Under the pieces are notes generated by a model. That model worked only from the letters and a program-made list of their open reading frames with translations, did not search any database and had not been told where the DNA came from. Shown here in pieces: positions 20,672 through 42,291 of a DNA stretch of 64,000 nt (within the stretch, counting starts at the first letter, position 1; each line of letters opens with the position of its first letter). A program made the translations under genes and the position numbers. The stretch is from an uncultured Bacteroidales bacterium (lineage in GTDB: Bacteria; Bacteroidota; Bacteroidia; Bacteroidales; Paludibacteraceae), in the NCBI GenBank assembly GCA_903901975.1, contig CAIUTB010000118.1:1-64000 (forward strand), written 5' to 3'.

Positions 20672-22120
20672 TTAGAATTTATATTGCATACGAACTGTCA
20701 ACACATTGTCAGTTAAGTCTGCCATATATTTTTTAAGCATAGTTTTACCGTTGCTTACCATATCATAGTAAACCGTCAACTTAACATTGTTGTTCATGCG
20801 GTATATATATCCAATTCCAATAGTAGAATAAGACATATCTGTTTTGCTTGCTGCCATATAAGGCTTTGATGTATTTGGTGTTTTGGCGTTTGCAGCAATT
20901 TGATCAGCGGTTAGTGCAGTTCCAATAGCACTTGAATTGATGTCAGTATTTGGATTGTACCAGTCATATTTTACAGTAATACTGTGTTTGGTATCAGCAA
21001 TATCTTGAACAAAATGTACATAACCACCATTAAAATTACGGATATAAGTGTCAGCACCTGCGGTAATTGTTGTAGGTTCATATCCATTAGGACTTGCAGA
21101 ACTTCCCGCTGTACCTGGTTGTGTTCCAAAAATATATTCAGCACGAATTTGAGTTAAACCAGCAACAGATGCCAATGAAAATTGACCATCAAAGCCATAG
21201 TATGTACGGTTAGCAAAATTATTTGTATTCAAATTTAAATTTGCTTTAGGAGTAGTAGTACTTGCTGGGTCAACAACTAATGCGCTACTATCACGGGCAA
21301 ATGCTCCGTTATTCATTTTGTACACATATCTTGAAGTTTGATAGTTGAAACCTGCATACATTGAAGCACCTAAACCCCATTTCATTGTAGAAGTACCTTC
21401 TGAATAGCTAAGGTGTCCGATGAAGTCTTTTTGAGATTTATAATCTTGTCTGATTGAATTACCTGCAAACAAACCTCCGTCTAATTTAAGTACATTCCAA
21501 GGATTACCTTTAGGTGCTTGAAGTGAAAACATTACACCTAAGTCATTCTCATCAGGAAACAAAGTTTGAATAATGCGTGAGCGTTCCGGAGATTCCAATC
21601 TTGATGAAGAATATCCAATTTCATATCCGAAAGGACGATCAAACACTCCACCAGTTAAAGTCAACATATTTAACCATGGATCCAATGCACTTACAGATGC
21701 AGTCTTAACTGAAACACCAGTAGTTCCATTGGCAGTTCCACCGGCACTAGTACCAATAGGGGTTTCAAGAATGTTTAATTCCAATACGCCGGTACAGCCA
21801 AAATCAGAATATGTGGCTTTTAAACGACCACGACGAATACCAAAACGATTGTAGTTTCCACCAATCACTTTTTCAGGACCAAACATAGCACTACCAACTT
21901 TCATGTCATTTGTTTTGCTAAAAGAAGAGTCAATCTGAGAAGATTGCATTTGTGCCTGTACATAACCAGATATTTTCAGTTTTTTTAACTGAATTACCCC
22001 ATCTTCCAGGTTTGAGATACGCTGTTCATGAACATCCAATGAGTCCACTTTTTCTTGAGAGAAAGCAACGGTCGAACAAATCAGACCCAATGCGATAATT
22101 GCTAAACTTTTTAATTTCAT
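20672..22120 (-). CDS. Phosphate-regulated outer-membrane porin (OprP/OprO-like)
   Basis: 482-residue porin. Signal peptide (ending TVAFS-Q), a short coiled-coil segment EQRISNLEDGVIQLKKL like the trimerising N-terminus of OprO/OprP-type porins, then KISGYVQAQMQ and a long series of beta strands ending in LTVRMQYKF with a terminal Phe. It probably lets phosphate across the outer membrane. It is the first gene of the operon with pstS. The promoter carries three Pho-box-like 6-mers and a TTTCTTTG -7 box. A second, diverged porin of the same type is at 33.4 kb. Confidence 0.85.
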   Translation of the reverse strand: MKLKSLAIIALGLICSTVAFSQEKVDSLDVHEQRISNLEDGVIQLKKLKISGYVQAQMQSSQIDSSFSKTNDMKVGSAMFGPEKVIGGNYNRFGIRRGRLKATYSDFGCTGVLELNILETPIGTSAGGTANGTTGVSVKTASVSALDPWLNMLTLTGGVFDRPFGYEIGYSSSRLESPERSRIIQTLFPDENDLGVMFSLQAPKGNPWNVLKLDGGLFAGNSIRQDYKSQKDFIGHLSYSEGTSTMKWGLGASMYAGFNYQTSRYVYKMNNGAFARDSSALVVDPASTTTPKANLNLNTNNFANRTYYGFDGQFSLASVAGLTQIRAEYIFGTQPGTAGSSASPNGYEPTTITAGADTYIRNFNGGYVHFVQDIADTKHSITVKYDWYNPNTDINSSAIGTALTADQIAANAKTPNTSKPYMAASKTDMSYSTIGIGYIYRMNNNVKLTVYYDMVSNGKTMLKKYMADLTDNVLTVRMQYKF

Positions 22121-22181
22121 TTTGTTTTAATTTAATTATTGAATTTGAATTAGTTTTTAGTTTTGTTTCATTTTCACGATG

Positions 22182-22238
22182 CAAAGAAACTTCTATAAGA
22201 TTACAGTATCTTGTCAAATCTGTTACATTTTCGTTACA
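22182..22238 (-). promoter_or_regulatory. Pho box and promoter of the porin-pstS operon
   Basis: On the minus strand TGTAAC (22238-22233), TGTAAC (22227-22222) and TGACAA (22216-22211) repeat every 11 bp; 21 bp later is TTTCTTTG (22189-22182). It mirrors the divergent pstC promoter, including the same -7 sequence followed by CAT. Confidence 0.75.
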
Positions 22239-22326
22239 AAAAATTAAGTGTTTAAAAAGCCTGTATTTCTGAATATTTTATACAGTATATATAGGAGAAA
22301 ATCAGAACAATCGAGGATATTTCTAT

Positions 22327-22383
22327 TGTAACATCTTTGTAACATCTTCGTAATGCAGATTTAATACGATTGCCGTTTCTTTG
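22327..22383 (+). promoter_or_regulatory. Pho box and promoter of pstCAB
   Basis: TGTAAC (starts 22327), TGTAAC (22338) and CGTAAT (22349) repeat every 11 bp; 21 bp later is TTTCTTTG (22376-22383). The predicted start near 22390 means a very short leader before pstC. Confidence 0.75.
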
Positions 22384-22406
22384 CATTGAATTTAAAACAA
22401 AAAAGA

Positions 22407-23597
22407 GTGAAACGTTTTTTTGAAAAGTTTGTTGAAAGTGCATTGCTGATAAGCGGAAGCATTACCAGCATTACTATATTATTGATTATCATATTTTTAT
22501 TCAAAGAAGCCTCCGGCTTATTTACCACTCCGGTAATTGAAGAAGGGTATGAGCTGGCATTAAACAAAACTAATCCGGTTAAGCATCTAACGTCTTATGA
22601 AATCAAGGAAATTTTTGATGGTAAAATCAGTAATTGGAACGAAGTAGGTGGAAAAAACGAGGCAATTGAGTTGGTTCGGTTGAGCGACCTGACAAAATAT
22701 TATACAGAAGCGGAACTCGGATCAAATTTTGAAAACATTCCTGCTAAATCCAGTGAACTGACATCAAAACATCCCGGGATTATTCTGTTTCTTCCAACAT
22801 CTTATATTAAAAAGGACTTTAACGGTACATTATTAAAGCACGAAACCCTTCACCCGGGTGACTTTTTTGGTGGTAAAGAATGGTATCCTACTGCTTCACC
22901 TTCACCTCAATATGGTTTACTTCCACTTTTACTCGGAACATTATGGGTAAGTTTGGGAGCTATCCTGCTTTCATTGCCTTTTGGAATTTCTGTGGCAGTG
23001 TATCTGGCAGAGATTGCCTCCATGCGTGTTCGTAATATTCTGAAACCGGTTATCGAACTCCTTGCCGGAATTCCATCAGTGGTTTATGGATTCTTCGGAC
23101 TGGTGGTGATTGTACCATTTCTCCAGAAATTATTCCAATTGCCTGTTGGTGAAACTGCCTTAGCAGGTAGTGTAGTATTGGGAATCATGGCCTTGCCAAC
23201 AATTATCACCGTTGCTGAAGATGCTATGCGTACCGTGCCACGTGCTATGAAAGAAGCCAGTCTGGCACTCGGAGCAACTCACTGGCAAACTATTTATAAA
23301 GTAATTATTCCATATTCAAAATCAGGAATAACTTCGGCTGCTGTACTTGGTATCGGGCGAGCTATTGGCGAGACCATGGCTGTACTGATGGTAACAGGTA
23401 ATGCAGCCGTTATACCACACACCTTGCTCGAACCGGTTCGAACCATTCCGGCTACGATTGCTGCTGAATTGGGCGAAACTGCTGCAGGTGGTGGACATTA
23501 TCAGGCGCTGTTTATGTTGGGAGTAATTCTATTCGTTATCACCATGATAATCAGTATAAGTATTGAATTTATAGGTAAAAAGAAGTATAGCAACTAA
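22407..23597 (+). CDS. pstC: Phosphate ABC transporter permease PstC
   Basis: Inner-membrane subunit of the phosphate importer. One N-terminal helix, then a periplasmic segment of about 120 residues, then the permease core with the EAA-type loop EASLALGATHWQTIYKVIIP. The periplasmic segment contains a PstS-like stretch (NP.K.LTSYEIKEIFDGKISNWNEVGG) rather than a plain loop. The GTG at 22407 (MKRFFEKFVESALL) is chosen because the -7 box at 22376-22383 puts the transcript start near 22390, after the in-frame TTG at 22386. It is followed by a C/G-rich repeat and pstA. Confidence 0.93.
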   Translation: MKRFFEKFVESALLISGSITSITILLIIIFLFKEASGLFTTPVIEEGYELALNKTNPVKHLTSYEIKEIFDGKISNWNEVGGKNEAIELVRLSDLTKYYTEAELGSNFENIPAKSSELTSKHPGIILFLPTSYIKKDFNGTLLKHETLHPGDFFGGKEWYPTASPSPQYGLLPLLLGTLWVSLGAILLSLPFGISVAVYLAEIASMRVRNILKPVIELLAGIPSVVYGFFGLVVIVPFLQKLFQLPVGETALAGSVVLGIMALPTIITVAEDAMRTVPRAMKEASLALGATHWQTIYKVIIPYSKSGITSAAVLGIGRAIGETMAVLMVTGNAAVIPHTLLEPVRTIPATIAAELGETAAGGGHYQALFMLGVILFVITMIISISIEFIGKKKYSN

Positions 23598-25499: not shown

Positions 25500-25524
25500 G
25501 CCTCTAAATCCTCTACAAGGGTAC
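25500..25524. repeat. Degenerate junction repeat after pstB
   Basis: GCCTCTAAATCCTCTACAAGGGTAC resembles GCCCCCTAAATCCCCCTAAAAGGGGAC at 29.18 kb, with several C-to-T type changes. It follows the pstB stop by 3 bp. A clear inverted partner is not seen. Confidence 0.45.
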
Positions 25525-30526: not shown

Positions 30527-30972
30527 GCCACAAAAAATATCAAAAACAAATATAATTACAAACTGTTAATGTATTTTTTGCTTTAATACAAAATTTTGAC
30601 GGATTGAGTGTTTAATATCTATTTAAAGCCTACTGATTATTCAGTAGGCATTATTATATTCATTAAGTCATTTTTAATTTCCTTTATATGCATTCAACAT
30701 CCAATTACTTCAATTTTCATGAACTTATTCTAGTCTTTGAAAGGTAATTCCTTACTTTTCACACTATACATTAACTCTACAAATAAGTATTTTTTTGATT
30801 TCTTTATAATTATCACCTCTCACATATTATTGTAACAATCTATTATTCATATTTATATATAATTATATTAACTCTACAAATATTCCTTCATCCAGCTTAA
30901 TATAACAAAAGAACTATAACATTTATTGAAATAAATGTAGTAATATTGCAAAGCATTTATAAAACTAAAATT
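30527..30972. other. 446-bp non-coding gap before the DUF47-PiT operon
   Basis: Very AT-rich with no plausible gene. It holds the hairpin at 30628-30649 and, at 30820-30847, the 6-mers TCACAT, TGTAAC and ATTATT at an 11-bp pitch. These are followed 21 bp later by TAACTCTA (30869-30876), a poor -7 match. This may be a degenerate Pho promoter for the DUF47-PiT genes. Confidence 0.4.
30628..30649 (+). terminator. Hairpin after the MFS gene
   Basis: GCCTACTGA (30628-30636) pairs with TCAGTAGGC (30641-30649) around TTAT. The downstream sequence is AT-rich without a solid T-run, so termination strength is uncertain. Confidence 0.55.
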
Positions 30973-31617
30973 ATGTTGTTTGCAAAAGCTAATAAATCCA
31001 TTGAGCTGATTGATACTTTTCTCAATTGTATTGATCAAAGCTTGTTTTTGTTCAAAGAAGGCGTAAAAAATTATTTATATAACAACACTGAAAATTTCAA
31101 CAACAACTTGTTGTCATTGGCAAATGCTGAAATTGAATCGGATAAGTTACGAAAGGAAATTGAGAGAGCACTTTTTACACAATCTTTGATGCCTCAAATG
31201 CGCGGTGATATTATGCGATTGTTGGAGGAAATGGACAATATTATTGATCAGGCAAAAAAAAGCTTGTTTCAATTTGATGTCGAAACTCCTCATATCCCAC
31301 CAGAATTAATACCTGATTTTGAACGCCTCACACAGATATCAGTGTCTGCAGCCGAATCGGCAATGCCGGCAGCAAAAGCCTATTTCACTGAACCTATCAA
31401 TGTGAACGAAAAATTACACCGTGTTTATTTCTACGAAAAAGAAACCGATGTACTGGCAGACATTATACGCAGGAAAATTTTCAGAGAAATGCCAGATCTA
31501 AAGTTAAGCGAGAAGTTCCATTTAAGGTATTTCACACTTCACATTGAGAATATTTCTGACATTGCTGAAAAAGTAGCTGATTTACTATCTATTATGGCCA
31601 TTAAAAGAATCGAATAA
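30973..31617 (+). CDS. DUF47 / PhoU-like accessory protein of the PiT transporter
   Basis: 214-residue all-helical protein of the TIGR00153/DUF47 family, distant relatives of PhoU that are usually encoded next to PiT permeases. Recognisable parts are MLFAKANKSIELIDTFL, IESDKLRKEIERALF and YFTLHIENISDIAEKVADLL. The ATG at 30973 is preferred to an in-frame TTG at 30946. The stop is 2 bp before the PiT start, so the two are translationally coupled and probably act together. Confidence 0.85.
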   Translation: MLFAKANKSIELIDTFLNCIDQSLFLFKEGVKNYLYNNTENFNNNLLSLANAEIESDKLRKEIERALFTQSLMPQMRGDIMRLLEEMDNIIDQAKKSLFQFDVETPHIPPELIPDFERLTQISVSAAESAMPAAKAYFTEPINVNEKLHRVYFYEKETDVLADIIRRKIFREMPDLKLSEKFHLRYFTLHIENISDIAEKVADLLSIMAIKRIE

Positions 31618-31619
31618 AA

Positions 31620-33362
31620 ATGTTAATTTGGGTTTTCATTTCGAGTGGATTATTTCTGGGCTGGAAGCTTGGAGCAAATAGTGCAGCCAATATTTTTGGT
31701 ACTGCAGTTGGGGCTCGAATGATAAAATTCAAAATAGCAGCCATTATTGCAAGTGTTTTTATTGTCTTAGGAGCAGTTTTTCAGGGATATGGTGCAGCTG
31801 ATACACTTTCACAACTCGGTTCAATTGATGCATTGGGTGCTGCATTTACGGTTTCACTTTGTTCAGCATTGGTGATAATCATTATGACAAGAAACAAACT
31901 TTCGGTTTCTACTAGTCAAGCCATAGTCGGAGCCATTATTGGATGGTGCTATTTCACTTCAAAACATATTGATTATCTAATACTTACAAAAATTGTAAGT
32001 TCGTGGATAAGTGCTCCTTTATTAGGAGGACTTTTTTCAGCTCTGCTATTTTTGATGTTGCGGAAATTTCATTTAAAATCGAAAATACATTTAATTAAGC
32101 AAGAAGCATTAACTCGCATTGCCCTAATTATTACCGGAGCTTTTGGAGCTTACAGTTTGGGTGCAAATAACATTGCCAATGTAATGGGGGTATTTATTAA
32201 CGCTGTATCATTCACAATAAAACTGGGTTCAGTTACATTTCAGTCAACTCAAGTACTTTTTTTTCTGGGTAGCCTTGCTATAGCTTTAGGTATAATTACT
32301 TACGGTAAGAAAGCAATGGAAAACATTAAAGGAGAATTTATTAATCTAACACCCGAATCGGCAATAGTAGTTGTATTATCACAAGCAATTGTGTTGTTTC
32401 TTTTCTCATCTTCCACGGTTTCAAAAAATTTAATTAATTTAGGTTTGCCAACTATTCCGCTTGTACCGGTATCAAGTACGCAAGTTTTGGCAGGTTCGGT
32501 CATCGGTATTGGTTTGGCAAAGGGTTTACAGGAAGTGAAACTTAAGATAGTAGGAAACATTTTGATTGGTTGGATACTCACACCAATATTTTCAGGGTTT
32601 TTGACTTTCTTCAGCTTGTTTTTTGTAAATAGTATTTTTGGAGTTGCCATTACCCATAAAGTTCCAATAGTAACAAATAATTTATCTTCAAATGCAATAT
32701 TATTTAACATATCCCTGGAATATTCACCGCTTACTTTCCTGTTTTTTCTCTCAATAGTGCTAATATTCTGCACTTGGGTGTTTTTTACTTATAAAAAAAG
32801 CAAAGCCAAACTTCAGGAGAATGAACGACGATGGGCAGAACAATTACATTTTTCGGAATTTCAAAAAGCACTCAACGATATTGAAGTTAACACTATTCAT
32901 CTAGAAAACGATACTCTGGCAACACAACTGGAAGAAAGAAAAAAAGAATTGATAACCTACTCACTCAACATTGGACAGCAACGCGAATTACTCGATTCTA
33001 TTTGTAAATCAATTGAAAAAGCTGTAAATGTGAAAAATAGTGATGAAAAAAATCTTATTTTGACAAATGAATTGATTCGTATCAAGCAAAAAAAGAGCTT
33101 TACTACCGAAGCAGAAAAAATTTATCAAAATGCAGAGCAAGCACATACTGAATTTTTAAGCAGGTTATTATCAAAATATCCAAACTTAACAAATCAGGAA
33201 AAGCGTTTATTAGTCTTACTTAGAATTGGTTTGTCAACAAAGGAAATTGCACCGGTACTAAATATCTCAACAAAAAGTGTCGAAATTGGGCGACATAGAT
33301 TACGAAAAAAAATAAACTTAAATAAAGATGAGAACTTAATACAATTTGTAAAATCAATGTAA
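31620..33362 (+). CDS. PiT-family permease fused to a coiled-coil linker and LuxR-type HTH domain
   Basis: 580 residues in one uninterrupted frame. Residues 1-390 are a PHO4/PiT permease: VSTSQAIVGAIIGW near 95 and PVSSTQVLAGSVIGIG near 283 are the duplicated family motifs. The paired GANDxAN motifs read GANSAAN (Ser21) and GANNIAN (Asn184), so both Asp that bind sodium and phosphate in studied PiT proteins are replaced. Residues about 392-518 form a charged helical linker after the last membrane helix. Residues 519-580 are a LuxR-like helix-turn-helix (LTNQEKRLLVLLRIGLSTKE...SVEIGRHRLRKKI) as in other Bacteroidota TPR/HTH regulators. A membrane-held phosphate-responsive DNA-binding protein is plausible; transport of phosphate or another anion with the HTH as passenger is the alternative. 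Confidence 0.88.
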   Translation: MLIWVFISSGLFLGWKLGANSAANIFGTAVGARMIKFKIAAIIASVFIVLGAVFQGYGAADTLSQLGSIDALGAAFTVSLCSALVIIIMTRNKLSVSTSQAIVGAIIGWCYFTSKHIDYLILTKIVSSWISAPLLGGLFSALLFLMLRKFHLKSKIHLIKQEALTRIALIITGAFGAYSLGANNIANVMGVFINAVSFTIKLGSVTFQSTQVLFFLGSLAIALGIITYGKKAMENIKGEFINLTPESAIVVVLSQAIVLFLFSSSTVSKNLINLGLPTIPLVPVSSTQVLAGSVIGIGLAKGLQEVKLKIVGNILIGWILTPIFSGFLTFFSLFFVNSIFGVAITHKVPIVTNNLSSNAILFNISLEYSPLTFLFFLSIVLIFCTWVFFTYKKSKAKLQENERRWAEQLHFSEFQKALNDIEVNTIHLENDTLATQLEERKKELITYSLNIGQQRELLDSICKSIEKAVNVKNSDEKNLILTNELIRIKQKKSFTTEAEKIYQNAEQAHTEFLSRLLSKYPNLTNQEKRLLVLLRIGLSTKEIAPVLNISTKSVEIGRHRLRKKINLNKDENLIQFVKSM

Positions 33363-33380: not shown

Positions 33381-34742
33381 ATGAAAAAAACATTATTAAC
33401 CATCGTGGTTTTACTTGCATTCACAAGTATAACTGCACAAGAAAAGCAAAATGACAGTATTCGGCTCAATGCATATGGTCAGTTAGTAAACCGAGTTCCA
33501 TTGGTTGCAGAAAACAGAAACGGTATTCTTGTTTTTGAATCGAAAGACCAAAGCATGAAAACCTGGTTCGACTTACGTGTAAATTTTGACGCAGCTCATT
33601 ATTTCGATGAAAATGCTTACAATGCAATTGGTGATGGTACTACAATTCGTCGTTTACGTTTTGCTATGAAAACAATTCTTTACAAACACTGGACTGGTGA
33701 AGTAGACTTAAATTTTGCCGGAGGCCAGCTCGATGTAAAAGATGCATTTTTGGGCTACAGATCTGACGAGACTAAATATTATGTGAAAGCAGGTTATTTC
33801 AAAGAACCAATTTCGATGGAAACAACTACCACTTCGCGTTATCAGACATTTATCGAAGAACCATTTATGACCGAATTTGCTCCGGCACGTCAAATGGGTA
33901 TAAATTTTTCGAAATGGGATGACAAATATTTAGGTGTTATTGGCGTACACTTTAATGATGTTGAAAATCTTGAAGTTACTACTTGGTCGCAAGACTTAAA
34001 TAAAGCACAAGGCACCGATGAAGGTTATTCAATCACAGGTAAAGCGGTATTTAGACCTATTAACATTGACCATAAAGTAATTCACATAGGTGTATCCGGT
34101 TCGTATCGTACGCCAAAAACAAGTTGGGAATTTCCTAATACCTATAGAATTTCAATGCGAGATATGACAAATATTAGCCGAAAAAAATTCCTTGATTCTG
34201 ACAATATACCAAATGTCAAATCATACATTTTACTTGGAGGTGAATTAGCAGCTTGTTATAACAATTTAAAATTTTCCAGCGAATGTATTTATACCGATAT
34301 AACACGCGAAACGGGATTTGAAAGTTACCATGCAAGTGGATGTTTTGCGTCTTTGTCTTATCTTATTTTTGGAGGAAAATACTCTTACAATGATGAGGAA
34401 GGTGAATTTACACAAGTTTCGAGAGGAAAAAAATGGGGCGATGTAGAACTTGCTCTACGTTACGACTATATTAATCTGAACGATACAAAAGCTGCAGTTA
34501 TGGGTGGTAGTGCCAATGGTTACACAGCAGGTATTACATACCACGTTAATCCAAATGTAAAATTCATGATCAATTATTCATATATTAACCACGACCGTTA
34601 TGCGAACGGTAAAGGATCACTTTACGTAGGTCACGATGTGGAAGGAAATTTAACGCGTATTCCTTCGCTAGTAGCAGAAAGTGCAGGTAAAGGTGGAGAT
34701 GATTACGGTTTTATTCAAGCCAGAGCTGAAATTGATTTTTAA
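33381..34742 (+). CDS. OprP/OprO-like outer-membrane porin
   Basis: 453-residue beta-barrel porin with a signal peptide (SITA-QEK). Typical phosphate-selective porin strings are RRLRFAMKTILYKHWTGEVDLNFAGG and YVKAGYFKEPISMETTTTSRYQTFIEEP. It ends in a terminal aromatic strand ARAEIDF. It starts 18 bp after the PiT-HTH gene, so the outer- and inner-membrane proteins probably share a transcript. It is diverged from the porin at 20.7 kb, and unlike that one lacks a clear N-terminal coiled coil. Confidence 0.85.
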   Translation: MKKTLLTIVVLLAFTSITAQEKQNDSIRLNAYGQLVNRVPLVAENRNGILVFESKDQSMKTWFDLRVNFDAAHYFDENAYNAIGDGTTIRRLRFAMKTILYKHWTGEVDLNFAGGQLDVKDAFLGYRSDETKYYVKAGYFKEPISMETTTTSRYQTFIEEPFMTEFAPARQMGINFSKWDDKYLGVIGVHFNDVENLEVTTWSQDLNKAQGTDEGYSITGKAVFRPINIDHKVIHIGVSGSYRTPKTSWEFPNTYRISMRDMTNISRKKFLDSDNIPNVKSYILLGGELAACYNNLKFSSECIYTDITRETGFESYHASGCFASLSYLIFGGKYSYNDEEGEFTQVSRGKKWGDVELALRYDYINLNDTKAAVMGGSANGYTAGITYHVNPNVKFMINYSYINHDRYANGKGSLYVGHDVEGNLTRIPSLVAESAGKGGDDYGFIQARAEIDF

Positions 34743-34766: not shown

Positions 34767-35609
34767 ATGAAAATTAAAATTTTTCAAACAAGCATATTGC
34801 TAATTGCAATGTTTTTGGGCGTATCGTGTATTAACGATGCCGTTTATGTGGGATCTGCTTCAATTTCAAATATAAGTGCCTCACCCGAAATTCCCAAAGC
34901 TTCCGACTCTGTGGTTATTTCTGCAAAAATTACCGATTTAAAAGGTGTTCAATCAGCAAAATTATATTTTAAATCATTAGGTTCTACTGCTTTTACAACT
35001 GTAGGAATGACCGAAGGTGAGAATCATATTTTCAGTGGTGAAATTTCTGAATATCCTTTAGACACTGTTGTTCAGTATTATATTGAAGTAATCAATATAG
35101 ACAATATGACTACTAAATTTCCGTCTGCAGCACCGGCATCACTTGCTTTGTACACGGTAGGCGTAAACACTTCAAGTAAAATATTTGTGAACGAAGTATT
35201 TCCAGATGGAACAAAAGATGCAACCGATCCTGATTGGGTAGAATTCTACAACGATTATGATGTTGAAGTTGATCTAAGCGGATACTATTTTTATGATAAT
35301 GGTATTTTAAGTTCCAATGGTACAAAACCCAAACGGGTGATTGAAAATGGTGTAAAAATTCCGGCAAAAGGATTTTTAGTAATTAAAACTGAAACTTATA
35401 CCAGCCAATACACAGTTGAATTTGGATTAAGTACAGGGGGAGATGGAATTTACCTAGAAAATAAAGAAGGTATATTAGTTGCGAAATTGGATTTTTCAGC
35501 AATAATCACTACCGGAAAAAAATCCTATGGTTGTAAACCGGATGGTTCTTCAAATTTGGTTTTGTTCAACGTTGCAACCAAAGGAGCATCTAACAATAAC
35601 GCAAATTAA
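34767..35609 (+). CDS. Lipoprotein with a lamin-tail domain
   Basis: Lipobox GVSC with acylated Cys near residue 21. An Ig-like domain (about 30-130) is followed by a lamin-tail domain (about 137-275): IFVNEVFPDG..DPDWVEFYNDYDVEVDLSGYYFYD is diagnostic. LTD modules in secreted bacterial proteins usually accompany hydrolases or serve as binding modules. It follows the porin by 24 bp and precedes a beta-propeller lipoprotein. The same LTD plus propeller combination recurs with T9SS tails at 43-47 kb. Confidence 0.75.
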   Translation: MKIKIFQTSILLIAMFLGVSCINDAVYVGSASISNISASPEIPKASDSVVISAKITDLKGVQSAKLYFKSLGSTAFTTVGMTEGENHIFSGEISEYPLDTVVQYYIEVINIDNMTTKFPSAAPASLALYTVGVNTSSKIFVNEVFPDGTKDATDPDWVEFYNDYDVEVDLSGYYFYDNGILSSNGTKPKRVIENGVKIPAKGFLVIKTETYTSQYTVEFGLSTGGDGIYLENKEGILVAKLDFSAIITTGKKSYGCKPDGSSNLVLFNVATKGASNNNAN

Positions 35610-35702: not shown

Positions 35703-36467
35703 ATGAATAAAAGAATCATTTTTCTTTCACTGACTGCGATGATCACTTGCTGTTCTTGCATTATCGATGATATGGCTCCGCCCGATGATATAAGTAATGG
35801 CAGCTCAAAAGACAGTATATTTAATCTTAGCATCATCGAACCATCTGATTTAACTTTTACTGTAGGGAAAAATACATTTCTAACGGTAAGCGATAATACC
35901 GGAAAAGTGTATGAAATTTCGAGAAGTGGCGATTTGATTTCCACTCTTGATTTTACCGGTATCGATTTAGAGGGTATTTGTGTGGATACGTTGACAGGCG
36001 ATGTGTACGTTGCACAGGAAAGATTGAGTCAGATTGTTCATTTATCTCCTACAGGTGTAATAAAAGAAACACTTACACTCACCGGCTATATAACAGCTGA
36101 TGCAAATAGCAATTTCGAAGGTGTATCGAAAAACGGTGATACGCTGTACATTGTGAAAGAAAAAAATCCGGGCTTATTAATAAAATACAATTTAGCAACA
36201 AAAAACTGGACATCTACTACACTTACATTTGCGCTCGATTATTCGGCAATAACGTATGATGCCGTGGATAAAACATTGTGGATTATGAGCGACGAATCAC
36301 ATACATTATTTCACTGCAATTTGAATGGAAAAGCCCTAACAAAACAATCAATAAGTGTTTTGCAACCTGAAGGCATAGTGATTGATCACAAGGCAAATTG
36401 TGCATGGGTAGTTGGCGACAGCGACAAAAAACTTTTCAAAATAATTTTAAAACAACTAACTTTATAA
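35703..36467 (+). CDS. SdiA-regulated/YjiK-like beta-propeller lipoprotein
   Basis: 254 residues, signal peptide ending in a Cys-rich cluster (CCSC), most likely acylated at Cys19. The rest is a beta-propeller of the SdiA-regulated/NHL-like type: DLEGICVDTLTGDVYVAQE, NFEGVSKNGDTLYIVKEK and QPEGIVIDHKANCAWVVGD are repeated blades. Related propellers include phytase-like esterases, which would suit a phosphate operon, but no catalytic residues can be assigned. The stop is 11 bp before the next gene. Confidence 0.7.
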   Translation: MNKRIIFLSLTAMITCCSCIIDDMAPPDDISNGSSKDSIFNLSIIEPSDLTFTVGKNTFLTVSDNTGKVYEISRSGDLISTLDFTGIDLEGICVDTLTGDVYVAQERLSQIVHLSPTGVIKETLTLTGYITADANSNFEGVSKNGDTLYIVKEKNPGLLIKYNLATKNWTSTTLTFALDYSAITYDAVDKTLWIMSDESHTLFHCNLNGKALTKQSISVLQPEGIVIDHKANCAWVVGDSDKKLFKIILKQLTL

Positions 36468-36478
36468 ATTCACTCATC

Positions 36479-37120
36479 ATGGCAAAAGAAGAATTAAAAA
36501 TCGGTGAAATTTCGAAACCACGTTTCGAATTCCGTTCATTTGGGCAAAATTTCGACACAGCTGCAAAACGCATGGCTCGCCTGTCAATGCCAATTCCCGA
36601 AAAAGTATGGGAACGCTATTCGGATGAAATTTACATCCTTTCGCGTACCAACGATATAAACAATACCAAAGTTCGTGATGGTAAAATGGACATTAAAACC
36701 TACATTCAAACTGTAGATGGCATGGAACAATGGAACCCACTGATGAAAGGTGAATTTCCGATTCTTGCTTCAGTGCTGAAGAGCGAAGTATTTCCTGCAT
36801 TTAATGTTGTGATGCCCGCATTGACAAAAGATGTTTATACTTTCGATGAATTTATGGACATGATTAATTCAAATCCTGATTTGGCAGCTGTAAAAGTTCA
36901 CAAACAACGGTTTGGATATCTAGTGAATAATACCTTATGCGAATACGGCGAAGTACTTATTAATGGTGCACGGATTGTTACCATCAACTCCGAATCGACA
37001 GAGGTGGAAGACATTGTAAAAACAGTAAAGGAAATTGGGCTTGAAGGTGTAGAAAACATCAACTATCTGCAGGCAATCAAACGCGTTATTGGGATGATTG
37101 ACAAACCATTAGCAAACTAA
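36479..37120 (+). CDS. CYTH-like protein of unknown function
   Basis: 213 residues. The segment DEIYILSRTNDINNTKVRDGKMDIKTY..., GMEQWNP and the later VHKQRFGYLV...INSESTEVEDIV follow the strand order of CYTH/triphosphate-tunnel folds. The N-terminal ExExK motif is reduced to FEFRS, so classic triphosphatase activity is doubtful. The ATG at 36479 is preferred; an in-frame ATG at 36398 lies in the preceding gene. It is paired with a canonical CYTH gene at 37230, separated by one C/G-rich repeat. The function is unknown and family placement is moderate. Confidence 0.5.
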   Translation: MAKEELKIGEISKPRFEFRSFGQNFDTAAKRMARLSMPIPEKVWERYSDEIYILSRTNDINNTKVRDGKMDIKTYIQTVDGMEQWNPLMKGEFPILASVLKSEVFPAFNVVMPALTKDVYTFDEFMDMINSNPDLAAVKVHKQRFGYLVNNTLCEYGEVLINGARIVTINSESTEVEDIVKTVKEIGLEGVENINYLQAIKRVIGMIDKPLAN

Positions 37121-37229: not shown

Positions 37230-37700
37230 ATGGCACAAGAAATTGAAAAAAAATTTTTGGTAAGCACCGACGCTTTTAAAGCTGAAGCCTCAAAACAAAC
37301 CCGTATCACTCAGGGTTACCTGTCATCTATTCCCGAACGGACTGTCAGGGTACGAGTCAAAGGTTCGAAAGGTTTCATTACCATTAAAGGTATAGGCAAT
37401 GAATCGGGTGCTTCACGCTACGAGTGGGAAAAAGAAATTCCGGTGGAAGAAGTACAAGAATTGTTAATAATATGCGAGCCGGGTGTTATTGACAAAACAC
37501 GCTACGAAGTGAAAGTTGGAAAATACACGTATGAAATTGATGAGTTTTATGGCGAAAACCAAGGCTTGACAGTTGCAGAAATTGAACTCTCGAACGAATA
37601 CGACAGCTTTGAAAAACCATCGTGGTTAGGCCAGGAAGTTACAGGAGATGTAAAATACTATAACTCTATGTTGATGAAAAATCCATACACTAAATGGTAA
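37230..37700 (+). CDS. CYTH domain protein (inorganic triphosphatase family)
   Basis: 156-residue triphosphate-tunnel metalloenzyme. The N-terminal ExExK motif is intact (Glu4, Glu6, Lys8 in QEIEKKF), followed by VRVRVKGSKGFITIKG, RYEWEKEIP, YEIDEFYGENQGLTVAEIEL and the terminal YYNSMLMKNP. Characterised relatives of this length hydrolyse tripolyphosphate and other triphosphates in the cytoplasm using Mg or Mn. It lies between a CYTH-like protein and an anion transporter in a region dominated by phosphate genes. Confidence 0.87.
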   Translation: MAQEIEKKFLVSTDAFKAEASKQTRITQGYLSSIPERTVRVRVKGSKGFITIKGIGNESGASRYEWEKEIPVEEVQELLIICEPGVIDKTRYEVKVGKYTYEIDEFYGENQGLTVAEIELSNEYDSFEKPSWLGQEVTGDVKYYNSMLMKNPYTKW

Positions 37701-37868
37701 TTTTCATTAACAATTTAATCATTGACTATTTACAATTTTGAAAATAACACTGACAGGGTTTGAAAAGACTTATCGGTAAATTGCAATAACCTAAGTTTTC
37801 TAAATAGGAAGATTTAGGTGATGGCACTTAGTATTTTTGCATTATTAAAAAACAATAAATTTCAACAA

Positions 37869-39503
37869 ATGAGCGAAGAATTAAAAAAAGTCACACCAAC
37901 CGCTAATATTGAAATAGAAAATACCGTTCCATTCGATCCGCTCGATATGAATAATTACCGGATTGAGAAATTACCTAAAATGGTAAAATCCGGATTCGAA
38001 AAATGGATGGCATTAGCCGGCGGACCTTTGGCAATATTGCTTTTCATTTATTTCTATTGGTTTGCTAAAATTCCTTTTCTCGAACAATTTGACGCTTCCT
38101 CTTTAGGAAAAGAAGCTGCTAAACGATTTGGGGAAATAGGTGCAATAGGTTTTACGAGAATTAATTATGCCATGCTCGCAATTTTTGTAGGGGCAATAGT
38201 GCTCTGGATTACAGAAGCGATTCCAAATTATCTCACATCGCTGATATTGATTTTGGGTATGGTACTGACAGGAGTTACTACCGATAAAGTGGCATATGCA
38301 CAACTTGGTCACCCTGTTATGTGGCTAAATATCTTGTCGTTTGTTCTGGCAAGTATGTTGGTAAAAACACGTGTTGCCAAACGTTTTGCACTATGGTTCG
38401 TAATCCGGTTCGGAAAAAATGCAACCATGGTTATTTTCAGTTTTATAGTAATCAATATCGTTTTATCCGCTTTTATTTCGGCAACAACCGCCAAAGCAAC
38501 TATTTTGTTACCCATTTTCATGGTTGTGGCTGCCATTTATGGTGCAAGCAAAGACGATCGGAATAATTTCGGGCGTAATTTGGTACTGCAAAATCTTTTT
38601 CAGATTAATATGGGAGCTACGGGATTTCTCACGGGTTCTGGGGCAAACCTTTTGGCTGCAGCCATGATTGCTGGTGCAATGGGTTGGAGTTCATTTAGCT
38701 ATCAGGATTGGTTTGTGGCTGCATTTCCCTTGTGTTTGATTTTAATGTTGATTGGGTGGTTTGTAGGACTTAAGATTATTTTTCCATTAAAAAAATGTGA
38801 AAATCAACCGCAAATAGAAGGTGGAATGGATCGACTACAATTGGAACTTTCCAAAATGGGTAAAATGACTTTTGAGGAATTTAAAGCTATTGCTATTTTT
38901 GTATGTGTGCTGGCATTGTGGGCAACCGACAAACAACACGGCATCAATCAAACAGCAGTGGCATTTATCGGAGCTGTAGTGGCATTATTACCCGGAATTG
39001 GTATTGTAAAATGGAACGATGTGGATATTCCCTGGCATTTATTGCTTTTCTCTGCGGGAGCTTATACCTTAGGTGCAGGATTAGAAGCTACGGATTTACC
39101 TGCTACTTTAATCGAGACATTATTCAATGCTATTGGAGTAAACTCACACACACCTTTTATTCTGATTTACGCAATGCTTACCGGTGGCATGTTATTCTCC
39201 GCACTGTTGTTCGAAAGTAAAACCATGCGCGCCCTGATTTTCATTCCTATTGCAATAGGTGTCGCACATAAATTTGGATATTCGGTTTTAAGTCTAGCTT
39301 TTCCGGTTGCACTGTTGGTCGAACATGTTTACGTATTGCCCTTCAACAGTAAACCCGCTGCATTGCTTTACACAACAAACCATTATAGCTGGAGCGACAC
39401 ACTGAAATATGGATTAACCATGATGGTGATAAGTTGGTTTATGATTATGCTTTGGGGCGAAACGGTATTAAAATGGTTGGGTTATACAAACGGATTGCTT
39501 TAA
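37869..39503 (+). CDS. DASS/SLC13-family anion transporter with altered substrate motifs
   Basis: About 545 residues, 12 or so hydrophobic segments, of the divalent-anion:sodium symporter family (NYLTSLILILGMVLTG, GHPVMWLNILSFVLASMLV). In dicarboxylate carriers each half has an SNT substrate/sodium motif; here the equivalents read ISATTAK (near 38475) and ESKTMRA (near 39213), so both Asn are missing. The substrate is therefore open: phosphate (as for yeast Pho87/90/91 relatives), sulfate, or other anions. A start at 37821 would add 16 residues. The gene follows CYTH by about 170 bp and precedes the PHP-like gene. Confidence 0.78.
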   Translation: MSEELKKVTPTANIEIENTVPFDPLDMNNYRIEKLPKMVKSGFEKWMALAGGPLAILLFIYFYWFAKIPFLEQFDASSLGKEAAKRFGEIGAIGFTRINYAMLAIFVGAIVLWITEAIPNYLTSLILILGMVLTGVTTDKVAYAQLGHPVMWLNILSFVLASMLVKTRVAKRFALWFVIRFGKNATMVIFSFIVINIVLSAFISATTAKATILLPIFMVVAAIYGASKDDRNNFGRNLVLQNLFQINMGATGFLTGSGANLLAAAMIAGAMGWSSFSYQDWFVAAFPLCLILMLIGWFVGLKIIFPLKKCENQPQIEGGMDRLQLELSKMGKMTFEEFKAIAIFVCVLALWATDKQHGINQTAVAFIGAVVALLPGIGIVKWNDVDIPWHLLLFSAGAYTLGAGLEATDLPATLIETLFNAIGVNSHTPFILIYAMLTGGMLFSALLFESKTMRALIFIPIAIGVAHKFGYSVLSLAFPVALLVEHVYVLPFNSKPAALLYTTNHYSWSDTLKYGLTMMVISWFMIMLWGETVLKWLGYTNGLL

Positions 39504-39561
39504 TTAATTTAGTAGAATTGGTAAAATGGTAGTCAAGGTTTACAACGATATCGTTAATTTT

Positions 39562-42291
39562 ATGAGTTTTTCAACAAAGCTCAGAAAACTGCGTACACAA
39601 ATAAACCAAAGCATTGATCTGCCTGAAATTATCTCTGAACTTCCCAATTCACATCCACGAGGATTTATTAAAGTATTTAAAAAACGAAGGACAACCATTG
39701 TCGAAAACTATTTACGAATTACAAATAGTCTCGAATCTGCTATTTATAAAGAAAGAGTTCATGCATTAAGTCTGCTGGCCGAACATATAATTTATTCACG
39801 TTCGGTAACGATGCCACTCAATGCTGCAAGGGTACAGTTGGCACTAATGAAAGAAGTGGTGAAAAATCGCGACGACAAACGCGTACAACTGGAATTAATG
39901 CGCGATTTTACAGTTTCATCTTTTGGTCACCCCAGAACAATCAGAAATTTTCTCAGAAAACTCGATATTATTGAAGTTCCCGAAACAGGCGAAGAACTGA
40001 AAGACCTTAAAATGGGTTGGGATTTTCATGTCCATGATAGCACTTCCTATGGTGTAAAACGTCCAATTCAACTTATTATTGATGCATTTATTAAAGGAAT
40101 TTCCGAATTAACAATTGTTTATAACAATCTCGACCGCGAAGAAGCTGTAAAAGAAGTACTTGAAGCGGGGAGAATATTAGGAATAAAAGTAAATATCGCC
40201 CTGGAATTTAGTGCATTAACCAATGGTAAGCGTTTCCATTATTTATATATTTTGCCCAACTTTTCTAGTGAAAAAGAAAGATTTAAAACATTTCTGAGAC
40301 AAAAAACAACCAATTTTAAAGACTTCCTGCACGAGTTGGAAGAGAATAAAAACAAACGTCAAAAAGATATTGAACGGCTCATACAAAATTTTAACAACGA
40401 ACATCTCTCAAAAATAAACGAAGGGTATGCATCTGATTCGATTTACTTTTTACAACCTATATCAATTCAAGACAAGGAAAATATATTTGGGCATGAAATT
40501 TATTCGCAGCGGCAACTGGGAGAGCTTTTATTTCCAAAACTAAAAAAAATACTTGAAAAAAGAGCGATACAGATTTCAGCATTAAAAATACAGACCGAAA
40601 AAACACACGAACAATTTACAAAACACGAAAGAGAAATAATTCAACAACGTTTCCGTGAAATACGCATGCAATACCGAAATTTGGAACCCGAGAAAATAAG
40701 ATTAGAATATTTTGGCAGTGACGAATCCTTGATGGTCGAAACGGCTGTTAGCAGCCTAGAAGACATTTATTTACTGGCAAAAAAAGCGGGTGGCGAAATT
40801 AAATTTATTCAGCCACTTGAGCATGGATTGCAAGCAGCTGTAGAAATTATTCTTGAAAACTACAAGATGCTTTCATACACCGAAATTTACAATATGTATG
40901 GCACAGTAGAAGCGAAAGAATCGGAATTTGTGACATTTGCACATTATATTAAACTCCTGAATGAAGGTGATTTATATAATTCAACAAAATTCCTAAAAGA
41001 CAACAATCTTAACTTTGACCCGAAAAAATTAGAAAATGCACTGACATATTTTCAGCAGAATAACCTAATTCCGGCTATAGGAAGTGATGCTGCCGGACGC
41101 TCCACACTAGCACCGGGTATGGGATTTGCATTGGAAAGCAGGTTGGCAAAACATCAAAAAAAGTATTTCAGAAAGCATCATCATATTTTACCGACCGAAA
41201 TTTCCGAACTGATTTTTAAATTAGCCAAGATACCCAAAACGCCTTTAACAAAAGACGAAAAACCTACTATTATTTGTTTGGGAAGGCAAAATAGTTGGAA
41301 ACAAAATCTGCTGGGAGATGAAAAAATTGAGAAAACCATACAACTTTTGCGAGGGTGGCGATACCTCAATCCGGGTATAAAAAACACGATATTTATACTC
41401 ATTGGATTTATTCCGGCTTATTTTACAGTCGGTATTGAATATGCACTTTTATGGCTTGGCATTACCGGTTCACGCAATATTTTCGTAGATTTGATTTCGG
41501 AAAACGGATTTAGTCCGAACGAATGGCACACTAACGATGTGAACTGGACAAATGTTGCTCATTCATTATTTTGGACAGGTTTCTCAGTTCCTATTCTTGG
41601 ATTAGTAAAAGCGCATTTCGATATAAGCTGGACAGGAGAACATCAGGGTGCACTTTTTGAAACAGTAAAATTTTTCTGTATTAATATTAGCAATGGCATT
41701 TATCTCGCAACTCATAATACCTTGCGCGGCTTCGATAAACAAACCATTCGTGCCAATTTTTTCAGGAGTATTCTGGCATGGCCACTTTCTGTCACTTTCT
41801 CTCCAATTGGAAATGCATTATTAATTCCAAGCATCGTTCAAGCTAAGTTTTGGTCCGATTTTGTAGCAGCCATTATCGAAGGAAGCGGCAAATACCGTAA
41901 CATTATTAAGGTGAAAGACCGAATTATGAAAAAGTTAATTCCTGCGCTAACGGGTGATAATGAAGAAGCCGAAAAATTAGCTCTGATGGATTTGATATTT
42001 TTCGTGAATGAAAGTCGAAGAGCTAAAACTGCACTGATAAAGCAATTAGTACCACAAAAAAGCAGAATTACCGAACTAAAAGAACTAATTTTTAGAAAAA
42101 AAATCAAATCCGTTCCTAACGAAAGTTACTATGAACTCAAAAAACGGATGGATTCACCTAACCAGTTCAACGAATTAATCGATTATATTATTGAGCATTA
42201 TTATCGTGAGCAAAGTTTGTATTTAGTCAGAATGGTGTCGGAAAATTATAATAAAATCAACAAATGGTTGGATCGGTTATCATCCAACTAA
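39562..42291 (+). CDS. Large PHP-like protein with C-terminal membrane region
   Basis: 909 residues, unusual architecture. An N-terminal helical part (1-150) precedes GWDFHVHDSTSYG near residue 155, which opens a PHP/amidohydrolase-like metal site. A long coiled region with many Lys/Glu (about 245-385) is followed by further PHP-like strands including FIQPLEHGLQ and IPAIGSDAAGRS near 515. From about 610 to 770 there are several membrane-prone segments (NPGIKNTIFILIGFIPAYF), and the tail is helical. I do not recognise a characterised homologue. It could be a membrane phosphoesterase. It sits between the DASS transporter and adenylate kinase. Confidence 0.65.
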   Translation: MSFSTKLRKLRTQINQSIDLPEIISELPNSHPRGFIKVFKKRRTTIVENYLRITNSLESAIYKERVHALSLLAEHIIYSRSVTMPLNAARVQLALMKEVVKNRDDKRVQLELMRDFTVSSFGHPRTIRNFLRKLDIIEVPETGEELKDLKMGWDFHVHDSTSYGVKRPIQLIIDAFIKGISELTIVYNNLDREEAVKEVLEAGRILGIKVNIALEFSALTNGKRFHYLYILPNFSSEKERFKTFLRQKTTNFKDFLHELEENKNKRQKDIERLIQNFNNEHLSKINEGYASDSIYFLQPISIQDKENIFGHEIYSQRQLGELLFPKLKKILEKRAIQISALKIQTEKTHEQFTKHEREIIQQRFREIRMQYRNLEPEKIRLEYFGSDESLMVETAVSSLEDIYLLAKKAGGEIKFIQPLEHGLQAAVEIILENYKMLSYTEIYNMYGTVEAKESEFVTFAHYIKLLNEGDLYNSTKFLKDNNLNFDPKKLENALTYFQQNNLIPAIGSDAAGRSTLAPGMGFALESRLAKHQKKYFRKHHHILPTEISELIFKLAKIPKTPLTKDEKPTIICLGRQNSWKQNLLGDEKIEKTIQLLRGWRYLNPGIKNTIFILIGFIPAYFTVGIEYALLWLGITGSRNIFVDLISENGFSPNEWHTNDVNWTNVAHSLFWTGFSVPILGLVKAHFDISWTGEHQGALFETVKFFCINISNGIYLATHNTLRGFDKQTIRANFFRSILAWPLSVTFSPIGNALLIPSIVQAKFWSDFVAAIIEGSGKYRNIIKVKDRIMKKLIPALTGDNEEAEKLALMDLIFFVNESRRAKTALIKQLVPQKSRITELKELIFRKKIKSVPNESYYELKKRMDSPNQFNELIDYIIEHYYREQSLYLVRMVSENYNKINKWLDRLSSN

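Follow-up and report, generated by a model that had tools for sequence, protein, structure and literature searches.

In yeast, Pho84 is a nutrient transceptor, and Sul1/2 are reportedly transporters that act as nutrient receptors. CbrA, in which an SLC5 transporter is joined to a kinase (SLC5-STAC-histidine kinase; PMC13022988, PMC7096432), is called a rare transceptor (PMC13022988). The Eggerthella lenta proteins DadR, HcdR and CadR combine 12 transmembrane (TM) helices with a LuxR-type helix-turn-helix (HTH), and they are described, in the cited part of the report, as transmembrane transcriptional activators (PMC9734109). Here we analyzed a PiT-type phosphate permease fused to a LuxR-type HTH, which is encoded in a 64,000-nucleotide stretch (the window) of contig CAIUTB010000118.1 from an uncultured Bacteroidales bacterium of the Paludibacteraceae. 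Comparison of the sequences suggested that the protein is probably, though far from certainly, a one-component transcription activator that is held at the membrane, senses through its PiT fold and controls its own operon. No PiT-HTH fusion was described in the literature searched by title and beginning of the abstract, a search that mostly excluded subscription papers.

Architecture of the fusion protein

The fusion gene and its parts were located as follows.

31620..33362, + strand: PiT-HTH fusion gene, a stop-free frame of 580 residues starting with ATG
31620..32654, + strand: PiT-type domain, residues ~1-345 (PF01384, 179.7 bits)
32730..32786, + strand: extra TM helix, residues 371-389, by hydropathy
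32787..33173, + strand: coiled linker, residues 390-518, of the type of Y_Y_Y propeller-HTH regulators
33183..33347, + strand: GerE/LuxR HTH, residues 522-576 (PF00196), within an HTH region beginning at residue ~519

In the Pfam scan, PHO4 (PF01384) matched residues 18-328 with 179.7 bits against a cut-off of 33.7, a score that places the protein in the PiT/PHO4 family, and GerE (PF00196) matched residues 522-576 with 37.9 bits against a cut-off of 23.5 (expect value, E, 1.4e-9). The profile of the PiT domain also matched the structure of TmPiT (PDB 6l85, E 4.1e-37). An initial annotation, made from the letters alone, had read a PiT permease, a linker and a LuxR-type HTH in one frame, and the two Pfam matches within the 580 residues confirmed this. 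Its order of parts was kept; its PiT limits of 1-390 were not, as the PiT domain ended near residue 345 and was followed by a variable loop (residues ~346-369), the extra TM helix, the linker and the HTH. Lysine and arginine were more numerous after the extra TM helix than before it in 51 of 51 fused rows, which places the HTH inside, in the cytoplasm. The succession of TM helix, coiled linker and LuxR/GerE HTH, with the HTH inside, is that of the TM-linker-HTH one-component regulators of Bacteroidota. The structure prediction that the annotation had proposed (AlphaFold2, 51 sequences; mean predicted local distance difference test 81.3, predicted template modelling score 0.59) gave PiT helices up to residue 340, a low-confidence stretch at 347-368, an unbroken predicted helix at 370-470 and four predicted HTH helices (525-536, 540-547, 551-564 and 573-579). 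Moreover, stretches within residues 351-579 aligned with frames of ~950-1000 residues at 27-34% identity, and the example of these frames in the same genome (L168) was a Reg_prop/Y_Y_Y regulator. Because the TM, linker and HTH parts align with such regulators, the chassis appears to be that of a known Bacteroidota regulator in which the sensor was swapped; no Reg_prop/Y_Y_Y sensor was found in the fusion protein by the Pfam scan. The fusion is conserved and is probably functional as a regulator.

Distribution and selection of the fusion

The first search covered 40 genomes including its own, 23 others of the same genus and 16 from other families. A full-length fusion in a single frame was present in 4 of the 23 same-genus genomes (identity 72, 60, 59 and 58%), and one of the 16 other-family genomes held a PiT protein, 53% identical, without the HTH. 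An artificial fusion by assembly or sequencing was therefore rejected, since relatives showed the same single open frame, and the initial annotation's own doubts, a sequencing error or absence of the fusion from relatives, were answered. In the order-wide profile search (E 1e-30), 26 of the 295 genomes held members of the subfamily, with 27 matches, 15 with an intact HTH, one split by a stop, two cut by contig ends and nine without the HTH. In the phylum-wide sample (E 1e-60) 13 of 395 genomes matched, and none of the 12 besides the window's own carried the HTH. A scan of named genomes confirmed at least 545 relatives, of which the best 80 were retained, a choice that leans to close kin. The 27 order-wide, 80 named and 4 same-genus frames made up 111 PiT frames, near-duplicates included, and 66 of these carried the HTH, the fusion of PF01384 with GerE/LuxR for which the annotation had suggested a search. 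Among the fused named loci were some from Bacteroidales, some from Flavobacteriaceae, one of them in the cultured species Mariniflexile maritimum (L121), and one from a bin of Melioribacteraceae (L081). In the plasmid collection none of the 14 matching records reached 80% coverage of the fusion protein.

On a careful tree, built from 103 rows, six changes of the HTH label were required, and well-supported branches forced at least four of them; PiT and HTH were thus joined or separated several times. The ratio of nonsynonymous to synonymous substitution rates (dN/dS) between the close relatives L005 and L006 was 0.078 for PiT, 0.188 for loop plus TM, 0.100 for the linker and 0.127 for the HTH, and the recognition-helix residues were near-invariant across 51 rows. 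The PiT part of the window protein had accumulated 38 changes vs 17 in its sister L004 with L005 as outgroup, and 39 vs 14 with L007 as outgroup.

The unfused proteins differed at their C-termini. Those of L045, L086 and L087 retained the extra TM helix and a short linker stub without an HTH, and such stub-only PiT proteins (~399-415 residues) look as if they had lost the regulator part. A different C-terminal part of ~130-170 residues was present in L143-L151, L111 and L133, and it had no Pfam match in the two scanned, L111 and L143; L111 and L133 are Acidobacteria bins.

An operator-like array upstream of the fused operons

A gene for a DUF47 protein lies directly ahead of the fusion gene, and the following elements were located upstream of it.

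30764..30770, + strand: heptamer CTATACA, distal site of the putative operator array (matrix score 10.5), 11 base pairs (bp) to the next site
30775..30781, + strand: heptamer CTCTACA, second site of the putative array (matrix score 14.3)
30872..30878, + strand: heptamer CTCTACA, proximal site (matrix score 14.7), 101 bp ahead of the DUF47 ATG
30941..30948, + strand: TAATATTG, putative Bacteroidota -7 promoter box, 69 bp past the start of the proximal site

Upstream sequences of 221-400 bases ahead of DUF47 were usable at 53 fused loci (52 plus the window) of 57 non-duplicate rows, and the 35 unfused upstreams used for comparison were drawn outside the phylum sample. CTCTACA- and CACTACA-like words were strongly enriched before DUF47 at the 53 fused loci, and the heptamer consensus C-T/A-CTACA preceded the fused operons of DUF47, PiT-HTH, porin and further genes. 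The loose heptamer was found in 52 of the 53 fused upstreams; the strict form occurred in forward orientation in 51 of 53 fused vs 1 of 35 unfused upstreams, and in reverse in 6 of 53 vs 2 of 35. The matrix built on the fused loci gave 136 forward and 12 reverse matches, compared with 12.9 in shuffled sequences and with three in each orientation in the 35 unfused upstreams. Matrices with one clade held out recovered sites in 8 of 8, 9 of 10 and 8 of 8 loci, with the seed pattern derived from all loci, and the control of 350 coding bases downstream yielded 11 matrix matches in 50 loci. Site spacings were phased at ~10.8 bp (R 0.745; 109 pairs, several per locus and non-independent). In the 64 kb, three sites clustered on one strand within 130 bp only at the array of the window. 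A search of the same genome for 11-bp tandems gave three places vs one for the reversed pattern, a count that is weak alone, and only the place in the window fitted the consensus.

The consensus of the Bacteroidota -7 box is TAnnTTTG. Putative boxes of this kind, TAnnTT[TA]G, numbered 27 vs 3.2 expected in the searched range, and 25 of them lay 65-71 bp past the start of the proximal site. Of the two target regions that the initial annotation had named, the likely one is the promoter before DUF47 (30.76-30.95 kb), and not the 18-bp gap at 33.4 kb. A search for inverted-repeat operator dyads returned only short AT-rich words, the best being ATTAA with a gap of 7 (6 loci vs 0.5 expected). Downstream of the fusion, 11 loci had a gap of at least 90 bp before the next gene, which was the porin in 10, and reverse heptamer pairs were present in 5 of the 11 (10 sites vs 1.3 expected), with a pair spacing of 11 bp and once of 32 bp. 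As a further control, 14 Y_Y_Y-HTH genes, hand-picked from plus-strand matches, were scanned at 8 bits: 11 had no forward site, two had one and one (L178) had two, whereas L170 and L174 had sites on the reverse strand only and L168 had none. With its two heptamers spaced by 33 bp, the L178 upstream region hints that the sites used by related HTHs may themselves be related.

Co-occurrence of the array and the HTH

The array followed the HTH closely. At 9 bits, a threshold picked after a first one of 7 bits, 47 fused rows had a site and two had none, while none of the unfused rows had a site and 45 lacked it (94 rows). This table and the careful tree omitted eight rows, namely the PitA outgroup, the long branches L054, L056 and L059, and the near-copies L085, L079, L069 and L006. 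At 7 bits (101 rows), 53 fused rows had a site and one did not, and 42 unfused rows were without a site and five had one weak site. Of the 2 starred contrasts in the first quick tree, 1.6 agreed and 0.4 showed no difference. In genome G139 the fused copy (L044) had sites and the unfused copy (L059) had no forward site; at L036 (G098), where the fusion was interrupted by an in-frame stop, the upstream array was present; and five of six loci cut by contig ends had the array (L049, L067, L079, L131 and L138, with L049/L138 and L079/L078 being near-copies). The array tracks the HTH and not DUF47-PiT in itself, and this is most simply read as binding of the array by the fused HTH, which would thereby drive the operon.

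Residues of the substrate site

In human PiT2 the residues D28, E55, S113, H502, D506, E575 and S593 are critical for phosphate transport (PMC3126765). The PiT2 numbering was placed on TmPiT by signature motifs, human PiT2 itself being outside the alignment, and with this tentative mapping the equivalents in the window protein were S21, I48, S97, L180, N184, V252 and S285. The residues were counted in 57 fused and 49 unfused rows. At the position of D506 (window 184) every one of the 57 fused and 49 unfused rows had Asn; the position of H502 was Leu in 57 and 46, that of E55 was Val or Ile in 57 and 43, and that of E575 was Val in 56 and 47. The His pair of the STTH type was replaced by Gln, at one position in 57 fused and 49 unfused rows and at the other in 57 and 47. 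Ser was retained at 97 and 285 in all 57 fused rows. The first-motif Asp persisted in 56 of the 57 fused rows and in 40 of the 49 unfused ones, and the window alone had Ser21. The patterns of the named-genome scan, which included YSLGANNI and QAIVGAII, biased its 80 loci for Asn184 and for the residues around 100; the order- and phylum-wide profile samples, free of that bias, agreed on Asn184.

The Asp expected in both GAND motifs of a PiT transporter was thus replaced in the window protein, which has S21 and N184 as the initial annotation had noted. Its argument that these two substitutions mark a receptor was not sustained: Asn184 and five more neutralised charged or His positions were common to fused and unfused members, and Ser21 was private to the window. 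Since fused and unfused rows share it, the altered site is a trait of the subfamily and not of the fusion. Five CysP-like rows (5 of 10 fetched loci, every one under the NCBIfam family cut-off) resembled the subfamily at six site positions, with V, Q, a non-His residue, N, a non-acidic residue and Q; their first motif was GGSG, compared with GAND in the window's kin. These rows (L152, L154, L156, L158 and L160) had a GxNN second motif and neutral site positions, as in the PiT subfamily. The top NCBIfam match of the window protein was the sulfate permease model NF053884; at 73.7 bits against an equivalog cut-off of 400, membership among the CysP sulfate permeases was rejected. Judged from sequence, the site appears to be part PiT and part CysP-like, and phosphate is a plausible ligand. 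As the altered site spans the whole subfamily and is CysP-like at six positions, the ligand may be other than phosphate.

Gene neighbourhood

The fused operon and its surroundings contained the following genes.

30973..31617, + strand: DUF47 (PhoU_div) gene, 214 residues from an ATG backed by relatives (PF01865, 75.9 bits, cut-off 24.4)
33381..34742, + strand: Porin_O_P family porin (PF07396, 137.6 bits), 18 bp past the fusion
34767..35609, + strand: lamin-tail-domain protein of the conserved operon (PF00932, 46.7 bits)
35703..36467, + strand: SdiA-regulated/phytase-like protein (PF06977, 70.7 bits)
36479..37120, + strand: conserved protein of ~213 residues without a family, with a conserved E/R/K pattern
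37230..37700, + strand: CYTH-domain protein of the triphosphate tunnel type (PF01928, 52.1 bits)
37818..39503, + strand: DASS family sodium-coupled anion symporter (TIGR00785, 210.9 bits, cut-off 198.6)

The DUF47 gene ended 2 bp before the fusion ATG, as the initial annotation had stated. DUF47, which the annotation had proposed as a possible signal transmitter, is not confined to signalling: it was immediately upstream of PiT in 108 of the 111 loci and one gene further in one more, fused or not, so that it lay within two genes upstream in 109, and an ordinary PiT in the same genome had its own DUF47. The porin cluster was present in 62 of 111 loci, and 60 of these 62 belonged to the 66 fused loci. 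The window porin was only 45% identical to that of the sister L004, while the porins of L004 and L007 were 89% identical; from these values it may be fast-evolving or exchanged. The CYTH profile matched PDB 3typ (E 1.5e-23) and 2fbl (E 4e-23), and the Nitrosomonas protein among these structure matches is a tripolyphosphatase. Neither Pfam nor NCBIfam gave a match to the 213-residue protein at E 0.01, nor did CYTH profiles, and it weakly matched 1yem (E 0.053), so that kinship with the triphosphate tunnel proteins is a guess. Its E, R and K positions were invariant, and its relatives also adjoined unfused PiT genes (L057-L059). A 921-residue protein at 39526-42291, flanked by the symporter and a gene for adenylate kinase, had no Pfam match above cut-off and no NCBIfam match. 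Upstream of the fused operon the window held pst genes, phoU and a PhoB/PhoR-type pair. The placement beside PhoR/PhoB that the annotation had stressed was therefore correct for the window; in relatives the upstream neighbours varied, at loci that were not searched for PhoR/PhoB.

Proposed mechanism and alternative explanations

We propose that an inorganic anion, phosphate being the likeliest, is bound and perhaps also transported by the N-terminal PiT-fold domain, which would be the sensor because it is fused and conserved. The added TM helix would pass the output of this domain into the cytoplasm, the coiled linker would dimerise the protein, and the LuxR-type HTH would bind the same-face heptamer row upstream of its own operon, for which the scattered heptamers bound by NarL-type relatives are a precedent. 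Binding would switch on, presumably as a single transcript, the genes of DUF47, the permease-sensor, the Porin_O_P porin, the lamin-tail protein, the triphosphate-tunnel (CYTH) enzyme and the anion symporter. An activator would fit because the sites sit well upstream of the promoter on one helix face. The initial annotation had suggested a phosphate receptor that holds a transcription factor at the membrane as a one-component sensor; the PiT tether and the co-occurrence of the array with the HTH suggest the one-component part, while phosphate as the ligand is only plausible. A bolder version, in which the protein is a single-polypeptide bacterial phosphate transceptor, its permease fold stripped of ion-coupling charges and acting as receptor, its membrane-held dimer capturing phased heptamers and its own operon activated independently of PhoR/PhoB, is possible but doubtful; in it the window copy, where the first-motif Asp is gone as well, may have turned into a pure receptor. 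If the proposed mechanism is true, the fusion would be a minimal system that couples the occupancy of a transporter fold to transcription with no phosphorelay in between, and these Bacteroidota would have a second anion-sensing route beside Pst-PhoU-PhoR/B. A permease would be joined directly to a DNA-binding domain whose candidate DNA sites are readable by comparative genomics, and the array would be a ready-made reporter.

Several observations weigh against this mechanism. The independent well-supported contrasts at 9 bits agreed in 4 of 4 cases, which is too few for significance (p 0.125), and DUF47-PiT occurs without the HTH in many genomes. Five unfused rows had one weak site of 7.4-8.4 bits at the 7-bit threshold. 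The fused rows L082 and L105 had no site at 9 bits; L082 had two loose heptamers, and L105 had no loose heptamer and no adjacent porin, and its HTH score (39 bits) was the lowest. The sixth of the loci truncated by contig ends, L055, which breaks off within its PiT part, had no array, and four of the five loci with gap pairs after the fusion belonged to one clade. Single sites were common, 22 at 9 bits or more in the 64 kb. The porin tracked the HTH almost as closely as the array did, and the array might belong to the porin operon type, since only single loci separate porin from array; one of these, L034, with porin and DUF47 and no HTH, had no site, which speaks for the HTH. Finally, the site residues important in human PiT2 were replaced throughout the subfamily, which weakens phosphate as the ligand.

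The alternatives differ in what they take from the proposed mechanism. The array could be a Pho box for the nearby PhoB-type regulator, with another or a minor role for the fused HTH. PhoB/OmpR-type regulators also bind repeats 11 bp apart, the 11-bp same-orientation repeats here resemble such sites, and both the PhoB-type gene just upstream with pst and phoU and the single site at 25511 (10.7 bits), between pstB and phoU, count against the fused HTH as the binder. However, no site over 7 bits was found in 22100-22420, before pstC, on which ground this explanation was rejected as the leading one; the three-site cluster occurred in the 64 kb only at the fused operon, and none of the 45 unfused DUF47-PiT loci had a site at 9 bits. 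Sites were likewise missing from the unfused copy of a genome in which the fused copy carries the array. We therefore regard the Pho box as unlikely. That the HTH is a vestige without regulatory function would agree with the related clades that lack it, some retaining only the TM stub, but it is most improbable in view of the HTH dN/dS of 0.127 between close relatives, the near-invariant recognition helix and the co-occurrence with the array.

Two further alternatives can be combined with the proposed mechanism. The protein may be a functional permease that uses its HTH tail for feedback, so that it both transports and regulates; this non-exclusive sub-case of the mechanism is only a little short of an even chance. 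The first-motif Asp in 56 of 57 fused rows, Ser 97 and 285 in all 57 and the purifying selection on the PiT part (dN/dS 0.078) speak for transport, whereas nearly all rows have V/I, L, N and V at the positions equivalent to PiT2 E55, H502, D506 and E575, and the window copy lacks the first-motif Asp and shows 38 PiT changes against 17 in its sister. A ligand such as sulfate or another oxyanion in place of phosphate, which leaves the rest of the mechanism intact, seems rather unlikely. It is suggested by the likeness to CysP-like rows at six positions, by the sulfate permease model as best, though sub-threshold, NCBIfam match and by the DASS anion symporter in the gene row; the neighbouring DUF47, CYTH, Porin_O_P and phytase-like genes, as well as the GAND first motif of the kin where CysP-like rows have GGSG, argue against it.

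Comparison with known systems

The fusion resembles DadR, HcdR and CadR in plan, since a multi-TM N-terminal domain is followed by a C-terminal LuxR HTH in one chain. Unlike the fusion, those proteins belong to Actinobacteria and respond to dopamine and other catechol substrates, and in the cited part of the report their membrane domain is not termed a PiT permease and a DUF47 partner is not mentioned (PMC9734109). With CbrA the fusion shares a transporter-fold domain inside a regulator; CbrA, as far as the cited sections describe it, signals through a histidine kinase to a response regulator and not through an attached DNA-binding domain. The likeness to yeast nutrient transceptors would be one of analogy, a transporter proposed to be a nutrient receptor, but these signal to protein kinase A without an attached DNA-binding domain.

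Among the PiT/Pho4 transporters (TmPiT, human PiT2), the fusion shares the sequence family and the two repeat motifs, and DUF47 also stands beside the ordinary PiT of the same genome; it differs from them by its neutralised site positions and by the C-terminal TM-HTH part. That part is in turn shared with the Reg_prop/Y_Y_Y-TM-linker-HTH regulators of Bacteroidota such as L168, which align over the TM helix, linker and HTH but whose sensor is a propeller with Y_Y_Y, where the fusion has a permease. The novelty is likely to lie in the PiT permease as probable sensor, within the known kind of multi-TM LuxR regulators and transceptors.

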